This document shows positions 14,496 through 17,303 of a stretch of DNA of 64,000 nucleotides, in pieces. Source of the DNA: Lachnospiraceae bacterium. Lineage in GTDB: Bacteria; Bacillota; Clostridia; Lachnospirales; Lachnospiraceae. A program made the translations under genes and the position numbers. The stretch covers positions 1 through 64,000 of the forward strand of contig JAFRYA010000005.1 of the NCBI GenBank assembly GCA_017441295.1, read 5' to 3'. The notes under the pieces are model-generated. The model searched no databases. It had not been told where the DNA came from and saw nothing but the letters and a program-made list of their open reading frames with translations. Positions within the stretch are counted from its first letter, which is position 1, and every line of letters begins with the position of its first letter.

Positions 14496-15701
14496 ATGAA
14501 AAAGAAAAGAGAAGAAGGCAAGCTGGTCATAACCAGAATAGAGAACAACATACTTTCGCTGCTCATGAACGATGATAACGAAATTGAGCAGATTTACTGC
14601 GACGGAGGACGTTTTGAATCTCTTGTCGGCAATATTTATGTCGGCAGAGTCACAAATATCATTGATAATATTAACGGTGCTTTCGTTGAATACGCTTCCG
14701 GCCGTTCAGGTTTTATGCTGCTTGACGATGAGCCTGATCCGACTTTCGCAGACATAAACAGAGATGAAGGCCCTATTCGATGCGGAGATATGCTTTTGGT
14801 TCAGATTACCAAAGACGCTTCCAAAAACAAAGAGCCAGTTCTGACCACGAATATTACTCTGACAGGTAAATACATTGTACTGACGACAAAGAATCCAGGA
14901 CTGCATTTTTCCGCTAAATTCAGAAATAAAGAAAAGTCAGCTGAGATTCTTGAAAGATATGAGCAGCTGGGGCCAAAGGAATATGGATTTATCATCAGAA
15001 CTAATGCTGCGAATGCTCCATTGGACAGTATTTTTGAGGAGATTGACCTTTATTCTCAGCTCTGGCTGACTCTCAGGGACTGCGGATATTATAAGAAAAA
15101 GATTTCACAGATCTATTCCGCGCCAAAGTCATATCTGGCCAGCATACGCGACGGTTATGACGAGAAGGTTCACACAATAATTACTGACAATAATAAGATT
15201 TATAAAGAGATTTCTGATTATCTGACTGTTTATCAGCCGGATGACGCTGACAAGCTGCAGCTTTATGACAATCCTTATGTTTCATTGGATGTGCTATACA
15301 GTATCAGAAGCCAGATAGAAGACGTTTTAAGCGAACGCGTATGGCTTAAATCAGGCGGTTATCTGATCATACAGCCGACTGAAGCATTGATATCAATAGA
15401 CGTAAATACAGGCAAATACGTGTCTAAAAGGGATGCCCAGAGGGAATTCCTCAAAATTAACCTGGAAGCTGCTGAGGAAATCGCACGCCAGATCAGGCTC
15501 AGGAACCTGTCAGGCATTATTGTTGTAGACTTTATCAACATGAAGTCTGCTGCTAGCAGAGACTTACTATTAAAGGCCTTTGAGGGCTATCTGAAACGCG
15601 ATCCGCAGAAGACCACTTTGGTCGATATGACCAAGCTGAACCTGGTCGAGGTTACACGCAAAAAAGAGAGAAGACCACTTTACGAACTTATGGATATTTG
15701 A
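14496..15701 (+). CDS. rng: Ribonuclease E/G family protein
   Basis: Single-strand endoribonuclease for rRNA maturation and mRNA decay. A 401-residue protein with an N-terminal S1-like RNA-binding region (GNIYVGRVTNII, about residues 45-105) and the DNase I-like catalytic core with its Asp residues in ISIDVNTGK and IIVVDFINM. It ends soon after this core: the CxxC zinc-link and small domain of RNase E are not visible, which is usual for short clostridial RNase G forms. It lies 9 bases after the DUF2344 gene. Confidence 0.9.
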   Translation: MKKKREEGKLVITRIENNILSLLMNDDNEIEQIYCDGGRFESLVGNIYVGRVTNIIDNINGAFVEYASGRSGFMLLDDEPDPTFADINRDEGPIRCGDMLLVQITKDASKNKEPVLTTNITLTGKYIVLTTKNPGLHFSAKFRNKEKSAEILERYEQLGPKEYGFIIRTNAANAPLDSIFEEIDLYSQLWLTLRDCGYYKKKISQIYSAPKSYLASIRDGYDEKVHTIITDNNKIYKEISDYLTVYQPDDADKLQLYDNPYVSLDVLYSIRSQIEDVLSERVWLKSGGYLIIQPTEALISIDVNTGKYVSKRDAQREFLKINLEAAEEIARQIRLRNLSGIIVVDFINMKSAASRDLLLKAFEGYLKRDPQKTTLVDMTKLNLVEVTRKKERRPLYELMDI

Positions 15702-15735: not shown

Positions 15736-16800
15736 ATGGATATTATTGATGAGATCAGAGCCGGAAATAAAGAAGCGATAAAGAATGTTTATAAAGATAA
15801 CGCCAAAGACGTTTATAATTTTGCCAAGTCAATAACAGGCAATCATGAAACCGCGCTGGAGGCTACTAAGAAGACATTTATCAAGCTTTTTACCGATATA
15901 CAGAATGGAGAAACGCCGACAAATATCAGGCTGGCAGCCCTTAAGATGTCTTATGACGAGGCATGCCGCATAGCAATGCCTTCCACAGAGAATATTATTT
16001 CACCTTATGACCCGATTGAGCCTAAAGAAGAAGAAACAAATATCAACCCGGCAGAAACAGCTGAAGAAGCGGCTGAACCGCTCGCTGAAAGTGCGCCGGA
16101 AGAAGCTCCTCAGACCGAAGAGGTATCTGAAGTTAGTGAAGAGCCAGCTGTGGCTGATGAAGTTCCTCAGGAACAGGCGTCAGAGGAAGCTGCCGTTGAC
16201 CCTGTAGATACTCCTGAAGAGATGACGGAAGTCTTTAAGGAAGCAGAGGCAGAGGCCGAAGTTACTGAAGAACCTGCAGAAGCTCCTGCTGACGATTTTG
16301 TAGATGCTTCAGTACTTGATCAGGACGAAGAGGTTCCTGTTGAAGAAGCTGTTGTTGAAGAAGCTTCTGCAGAACCTGAAGATGAAGCATCTTTCGGAGG
16401 ACTTACCTTCGTTTCACTTGATCCGGAAGACCTGGACAAGCCTGAAGAAGTTACTGAAGAAGCTGCAGAGGCTGCTGATGAAGCTGCTGAGCCGGCTGGT
16501 GCAGCAGCGCAGGTTGAAGAAGCTTTGGAAGAAACTGTTTCTGAAGAAGTTCCTTCTGATGATATTCCTGCTGAAAAAACTTTGGACGAGGCCGCTTCAG
16601 AGCTTCCTGCAGAAGATACAGAAGAGACTGTTTCCAAGAAGCACAGGCCGGGTTATGTCATTTGTATAATACTTTGCATTATTCTTATATTACTGCTTAT
16701 TTGGTTCCTGATCGGACTGCTTGAGAACCTTGGTGTTATCCCTGATACCATAGACCTTGGATATACATGGTTTAATAACGCAATTTATCCATTGTTTTAG
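15736..16800 (+). CDS. Membrane-anchored acidic protein with sigma-region-2-like N-terminus
   Basis: A 354-residue protein I cannot assign to a named family. Residues 1-85 read like region 2 of ECF sigma factors (an AIKNVYKDNAKDVYNFAKSITG segment-like pattern, then TFIKLF), but no region 4 helix-turn-helix follows. Residues 95-300 are a disordered-looking Glu/Ala/Pro/Val-rich acidic tract. A single hydrophobic segment (about 307-331) precedes a 23-residue tail, so the sigma-like part should be cytoplasmic and tethered. ATG 15736 follows GGGGG at 15726-15730; a longer TTG start is disfavoured. It closes the polA-rng run. It may be a sigma-like adaptor or regulator; no function is claimed. Confidence 0.75.
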   Translation: MDIIDEIRAGNKEAIKNVYKDNAKDVYNFAKSITGNHETALEATKKTFIKLFTDIQNGETPTNIRLAALKMSYDEACRIAMPSTENIISPYDPIEPKEEETNINPAETAEEAAEPLAESAPEEAPQTEEVSEVSEEPAVADEVPQEQASEEAAVDPVDTPEEMTEVFKEAEAEAEVTEEPAEAPADDFVDASVLDQDEEVPVEEAVVEEASAEPEDEASFGGLTFVSLDPEDLDKPEEVTEEAAEAADEAAEPAGAAAQVEEALEETVSEEVPSDDIPAEKTLDEAASELPAEDTEETVSKKHRPGYVICIILCIILILLLIWFLIGLLENLGVIPDTIDLGYTWFNNAIYPLF

Positions 16801-16812
16801 CAATTCTTTCAG

Positions 16813-16841
16813 TTGACTTTTCTTTATCAGTGTGATACATT
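16813..16841 (+). promoter_or_regulatory. Promoter of the rplU-prp-rpmA operon
   Basis: TTGACT (16813-16818), a 17-bp spacer and an extended -10, TGA-TACATT (16836-16841). Transcription would start near 16848. Confidence 0.7.
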
Positions 16842-16847
16842 TTGCTA

Positions 16848-16925
16848 GTTGGCCGCTCAATGAGGTTTTTAAAGTACGCATATCGCGTCACCATAGTTGG
16901 CGAGTATTTATTTAGGAGGTACATT
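16848..16925 (+). promoter_or_regulatory. rplU leader, possible L21 autoregulatory leader
   Basis: About 78 bases separate the predicted transcription start from the rplU ATG. L21 leader RNAs are known upstream of rplU-ysxB-rpmA in Bacillota. A short pairing between TCGC near 16881 and GCGA near 16900 is visible, but I could not confirm the family fold by eye. Confidence 0.35.
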
Positions 16926-17303
16926 ATGTACGCAATCATTGCAACCGGCGGAAAGCAGTACAAGGTTTCCACAGGTGACAAGGTCAGAGTTGAGAAGCTC
17001 GACAAAGAAGTAGGCGATAAGGTTTCTTTCAAAGAAGTTCTGCTCATCAGTGATGGCACAGTAACAGTTGGAAATCCTTACGTAGAAGGCGCATTAGTTG
17101 AAGCAACAGTTGTTGACCAGGCTAAAGACAAGAAGGTAATCGTTTACAAGTACAAACCTAAGACAGGTTACCACAAGAAAAACGGACACAGACAGCTTTA
17201 TACCGAGCTTGAAATCGGCGAGATTTCAGTAGCAGGCAAGAAAGCAGCTAAGAAAGAGCCTGTTAAAGAGGCAGAAGCTGAAGCTGCACCGGTAGAAGAG
17301 TAA
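16926..17303 (+). CDS. rplU: 50S ribosomal protein L21
   Basis: Large-subunit protein binding 23S rRNA. Start at ATG 16926, where the canonical MYAIIATGGKQYKV begins 6 bases after AGGAGG. The body ends with the YHKKNGHRQ-type motif. The protein is 125 residues against a usual 103 or so, because a Lys/Glu/Ala-rich acidic tail of about 20 residues follows the conserved end. Confidence 0.97.
   Translation: MYAIIATGGKQYKVSTGDKVRVEKLDKEVGDKVSFKEVLLISDGTVTVGNPYVEGALVEATVVDQAKDKKVIVYKYKPKTGYHKKNGHRQLYTELEIGEISVAGKKAAKKEPVKEAEAEAAPVEE

Follow-up and report, generated by a model that had tools for sequence, protein, structure and literature searches.

A clostridial gene lying between rng and rplU encodes a protein that joins an N-terminal domain with the predicted fold of sigma-70 region 2 to a single predicted membrane helix and a conserved aromatic tail. 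The fold is retained, both surfaces that once bound ligands have been rewritten and are constrained, and a precedent exists in PhyR of the alphaproteobacterial general stress response. For these reasons the favoured reading, at a rough probability of 0.45, is a membrane-anchored, transcriptionally dead mimic of sigma region 2 whose binding partner would be a protein other than core polymerase.

Gene and protein architecture

The gene was analysed in a window of 64,000 nucleotides, which is the whole stretch of DNA considered here (Table 1). What a preliminary description had reported from the sequence is confirmed, with two details corrected, the acidity of the linker and the extent to which the rng-rplU position is conserved. 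The start methionine has an equivalent in the same-genus orthologues, mostly with GAGGT-type Shine-Dalgarno sites ahead of it, and no terminator-like site was found between rng and the gene. These membrane-tethered region 2 proteins are described by no family of Pfam or NCBIfam. Downstream, the 125-bp rplU leader (16801-16925) contains the promoter-like TTGACT-17-TACATT and a small hairpin (CGTCACCATAGTTGGCG); a search of the whole window with Rfam at the gathering threshold gave no RNA match and no L21 leader.

Table 1. Features of the gene under study and its surroundings (window coordinates)
Feature	Position	Strand	Basis or remark
Gene under study	15736..16800	+	354 aa and stop; ATG start; GGGGG 6 nt upstream, purine-rich
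Degenerate sigma-70 region 2 domain, residues 1-82, four helices	15736..15981	+	AlphaFold2, Foldseek, HMM matches
TALEATKK, residues 39-46, aligned to canonical core-binding DxxDxxQE	15850..15873	+	Alignment with 42 sigma factors
LKMSYDEA, residues 69-76, region 2.4 helix; invariant Asp74 where the canonical residue is Asn	15940..15963	+	Alignment
Disordered acidic linker, residues 84-302, fast-evolving	15985..16641	+	AlphaFold2, composition, dN/dS
Single transmembrane helix, residues 305-331 (approximate), predicted N-in/C-out	16648..16728	+	AlphaFold2, charge distribution
Conserved tail LGVIPDTIDLGYTWFNNAIYPLF, residues 332-354	16729..16797	+	W, GY.WFN and final F invariant over six genera
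rng (RNase E/G family)	14496..15701	+	34 bp upstream of the gene under study
rplU (ribosomal protein L21)	16926..17303	+	Downstream flank of the gene under study
Promoter-like TTGACT-17-TACATT with TG, plausible separate rplU promoter	16813..16841	+	Such matches in the region not above chance in number

A predicted sigma region 2 fold

By prediction, the N-terminal domain is a sigma region 2 fold. The Pfam profile Sigma70_r2 matches residues 1-100 with an E-value of 9e-4 and 19.4 bits, below its cut-off of 24. All 17 NCBIfam matches of the window protein are to sigma factors. The profile matches of this protein are weak but point consistently to one family; the orthologues score better (TIGR02985, 1e-6; SigM family, 1.2e-6; TIGR02954, 8.6e-6; SigW, 1.5e-5). 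In an AlphaFold2 model built from ten orthologues, residues 1-82 form four helices with pLDDT values of 90-97, and a Foldseek comparison with the PDB returns sigma factors at all of ranks 1-37, except for the PhyR complex at rank 36. Region 2 of sigmaE superposes on the predicted structure at 1.8 Å over 80 columns, with a Foldseek TM-score of 0.74 by target length. In absolute terms the Foldseek E-values are modest, the whole-protein model reaching 0.039 at best, since disorder takes up most of the query; their weakness counts against the mimic.

The four-helix fold and the significant profile match place the domain, at the level of the fold, within region 2 of the sigma-70 family. The preliminary description, which had assigned residues 1-85 to an ECF sigma region 2 and seen no region 4, is borne out on both points: the closest solved folds of the four helices are sigma region 2, no Pfam or NCBIfam profile matches region 4, and residue 83 is followed by disorder up to the transmembrane helix. 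A better match to a different helical family, which would have spoken against this assignment, was looked for with profiles and Foldseek, and no such family scored comparably. An engineered repeat protein, the best chain in a PDB profile search, was rejected, as no single stretch was significant. The features of a functional ECF sigma factor are absent from the protein, that is, region 4, the DxxDxxQE motif and the hallmarks of regions 2.3 and 2.4.

Rewritten contact surfaces under selection

The ten orthologous domains were aligned with region 2 of 42 genuine sigma factors, a convenience sample from genomes of the same order. The motif DxxDxxQE, through which sigma factors contact the beta-prime subunit of core polymerase (PMC13147305), reads [ST]xx[AQE]xxK[KSN] in all ten: position 39 is S/T throughout (D/E in 28/42 genuine sigmas), position 42 is A6/Q3/E1 (D33/E9, thus D/E in 42/42), position 45 is invariably K (Q in 35/42), and position 46 is K7/S2/N1 (E29/D10, 39/42). 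The residues of regions 2.3 and 2.4 have fared similarly: at position 67 the orthologues have A7/E3, as opposed to W/Y/F in 42/42 sigmas; at position 74, D in 10/10, as opposed to N in 34/42; and at position 81, M/A/S in 10/10, as opposed to R/K in 36/42. A role as a promoter-specificity factor, already set aside in the preliminary description, is thus unlikely, since the residues for binding core and the -10 element are replaced in every orthologue. Neither of the two rewritten surfaces, to judge from these replacements, would now bind polymerase or promoter DNA.

The replacements are themselves conserved. T44 and T47 are invariant among the ten orthologues, as are several of the replacement residues, and many of the invariant residues of the domain fall in the two segments that formerly contacted ligands (residues 39-47 and 69-76). 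In simple pairwise counts, in which some dS values are saturated, the domain has a dN of 0.005-0.10 and a dS of 0.28-1.75; dN is similarly low in the tail and higher in the linker. Given the invariant replacements and a dS far above dN, the region 2 domain looks rewired rather than decaying, and under strong purifying selection. The loss of region 4 and of the canonical sigma residues would also be expected of a decaying ECF sigma pseudogene that had accidentally become fused to a membrane segment; this explanation has next to no probability, as it is contradicted by intact genes in ten genomes (and the tail in an eleventh), by a dN/dS far below 1 in both domain and tail, and by the recurrence of the architecture in five other genera.

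The conserved hydroxyl residues could have another meaning: phosphorylation of a Ser/Thr in the core-contact segment might restore the negative charge and allow polymerase to be bound, as in ECF43. Like the protein studied here, ECF43 (EcfP/EcfK) lacks the acidic motif of region 2.2, and EcfP/EcfK are activated by Thr phosphorylation (PMC8999054, PMC13147305); the S/T at position 39, where D/E is canonical, and the invariant T44 and T47 would suit such a switch. ECF43 differs, however, in possessing region 4 and a neighbouring Hanks-type kinase, and the position of its phospho-Thr (in DAED) is Leu/Met in 10/10 orthologues. Moreover, Lys occupies the Q position in all ten and mostly also the E position, the region 2.4 contacts are lost, and no kinase gene was recognised among the immediate neighbours read, all of which makes a phospho-switched sigma factor very improbable.

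Linker, membrane helix and tail

The preliminary description had noted an acidic linker of 200 residues. Its disorder is corroborated, residues 84-302 having pLDDT values mostly of 40-50 in the AlphaFold2 model; its strong acidity is particular to this species. Here, D+E account for 35% and K+R for 3% of the residues, with a net charge of -71, whereas in the linkers of same-genus orthologues the acidic residues are mixed with 13-21% K+R and the net charge ranges from -8 to -35. Among these orthologues, the linker varies in length from 104 to 223 residues, and it evolves much faster than both ends of the protein.

The one C-terminal membrane segment described earlier is recovered as a single transmembrane helix. 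In the genus, two to three K/R residues precede the helix and none follow it, a charge distribution from which an N-in/C-out topology is predicted. The helix and the final 23 residues match the region 2 domain in their degree of conservation; the tail has the consensus DLGYxWFNxxIYPLF. Matches of the linker and membrane segment to the Pfam families Prominin, RIFIN, SCO1 and PBP1_TM were rejected as low-complexity matches.

With this topology, the protein might be a latent split sigma factor, that is, a region 2 subunit freed by intramembrane proteolysis that pairs with a separate region 4 protein to start transcription. Both elements have precedents. RsoA of Bacillus subtilis, likewise a region-2-only polypeptide, acts in transcription initiation together with SigO (PMC8103513), and sigma domains with a C-terminal membrane segment occur in IutY and in ECF48, ECF52 and ECF53, release by proteolysis being established for IutY and predicted for the three ECF groups (PMC8999054). 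In the latter, however, an anti-sigma-like or zinc-finger extension is attached to a full sigma factor, whereas the present protein has no such extension and no region 4; it differs from RsoA in the missing core-binding residues and in its membrane anchor. A split sigma factor must bind core, and both DxxDxxQE and the -10-binding hallmarks are replaced in 10/10 orthologues; no region-4-only gene adjoins the gene, its flanks being rng and rplU. We therefore regard a split sigma factor as improbable.

Genomic context and distribution

Wherever the rng-rplU slot is assembled in the genus, in 11 genomes, the gene lies upstream of rplU/rpmA/obg; the other genomes of the genus do not assemble it. 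The genomes sampled are registered as Parasporobacterium sp. or Lachnospiraceae bacterium, mostly metagenome-assembled genomes from ruminant gut, plus one uncultured Clostridia. In ten of the 11, rng is directly upstream and the gene is intact, in the order rng - gene - rplU - rpmA - obg; in the eleventh the contig breaks off, so that just the C-terminal part is visible, ahead of rpmA. Of 29 rng loci from other Lachnospiraceae, seven have an empty slot (gap about 96-226 bp) and four have NUDIX, L,D-transpeptidase-like or lipoprotein-like genes in it, while at the remaining loci rplU is not within reach of rng. After rng, four other Lachnospiraceae loci (L113, L121, L124, L139) recurrently have what is by eye a YbaK/aminoacyl-tRNA-deacylase-like gene of about 155-190 aa.

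A search with a C-terminal profile, which may miss more divergent members, found proteins built from the same three parts in a further four genera of Lachnospiraceae and in one other clostridial family. The neighbours of these distant homologues, in part checked with Pfam and otherwise judged by eye, differ from locus to locus: tyrS and, by eye, gpsA (L030); a DivIVA-like gene (L031); an M20 peptidase and a MotA/ExbB-like gene (L032); a permease and a metallo-beta-lactamase-fold gene (L142); and, by eye, a large efflux-type protein (L143). Sigma profiles match the L143 homologue at its N-terminus (3e-4); the N-terminus of the more divergent L030/L032/L142 subfamily is predicted to adopt the region 2 fold (pLDDT 83), with sigma factors as all of its top 20 PDB matches. 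A wider search at the level of the order added only matches to the membrane segment, and the plasmid and phage records searched gave no match. Matches of the C-terminal profile to the transmembrane segment only, in a MATE-like transporter of the same genome and in open reading frames of about 690 aa, are weak and were treated as chance. Three of the five distant homologues (L030, L031, L142) are within a few genes of tyrS; a general association with tyrS was rejected, as 0/30 other tyrS loci have a homologue within 1.5 kb.

With homologues at unrelated loci, the link to rng and rplU exists only at the level of the genus. The earlier proposal that a conserved position between these genes ties the protein to a translation/RNA cluster does not extend beyond it, and a conserved functional role as a neighbour of rng and rplU was rejected, most other Lachnospiraceae having no such gene there.

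The scattered loci bear on a further explanation, in which the sigma ancestry is of historical significance only and the domain, as a generic adaptor, binds an envelope or cell-division partner in a membrane scaffold unconnected with transcription. Such an adaptor could reside at loci as different as those with the DivIVA-like gene, tyrS and the MotA/ExbB-like gene; the rewriting of both ancestral ligand surfaces and a membrane helix and tail conserved to the same degree as the domain are also consistent with it. None of the genes beside family members at the loci read was recognised as encoding a sigma or anti-sigma factor, and for this reason a generic adaptor is nearly as probable as a mimic. 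A mimic is further weakened by the fact that a domain kept merely as a protein-binding adaptor would look identical. On the other hand, the closely kept backbone and the concentration of invariant residues in segments 39-47 and 69-76 suit the reuse of a sigma-type binding surface.

A proposed membrane-anchored mimic and comparable proteins

Under the favoured reading, the mimic could have arisen and could operate in the following manner: An ancestral ECF-type region 2 domain would have lost region 4 and acquired a single membrane helix, attached through the long disordered linker and bearing the conserved aromatic tail on the outside. Its polymerase-contact and promoter-contact surfaces would have been rewritten and afterwards kept under selection. 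Most likely the partner of the domain is a protein, such as an anti-sigma factor that binds region 2 or a similar regulator, and it may be held or titrated near the membrane, so that the domain would possibly act as a decoy; this capture may respond to something that the conserved membrane helix and tail sense or bind.

The genes for PhyR, NepR and EcfG usually occur together, whereas no nepR- or ecfG-like neighbours were recognised at the loci read for the present family, and this argues against the mimic. The sigma-like domain of PhyR pairs the correct ECF fold with core and promoter contacts that have degenerated, and it titrates an anti-sigma factor (PMC8103513); the fold and the degenerate contacts recur here, restricted to region 2. 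PhyR is a response regulator that combines its ECF-like sigma domain with a receiver domain, whereas the protein studied here contains no sigma region but region 2, is anchored by a membrane helix and gave no receiver domain match in Pfam. A more specific version of the mimic, in which a previously undescribed clostridial family would use the rewired domain to capture a transcription regulator at the membrane, with the outer aromatic tail controlling its release, as a Gram-positive, membrane-tethered counterpart of PhyR, is rather improbable at present.

Reports of sigma-fold proteins that have ceased to act as sigma factors are rare. In the literature consulted, the clear case is PhyR, which accounts for how an entire stress response is turned on. 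The family under study appears to have lost its polymerase and promoter contacts to a comparable extent, in another phylum and with the domain tethered to the membrane, and automatic annotation may mislabel its genes as encoding sigma factors of RNA polymerase. The genome of the window encodes two RpoD-like, primary-type sigma factors in open frames of 385 and 357 aa, at G000:C17:32583-32795 (L060) and G000:C10:48308-48517 (L061), and, besides these, four short ECF-type sigma factors.
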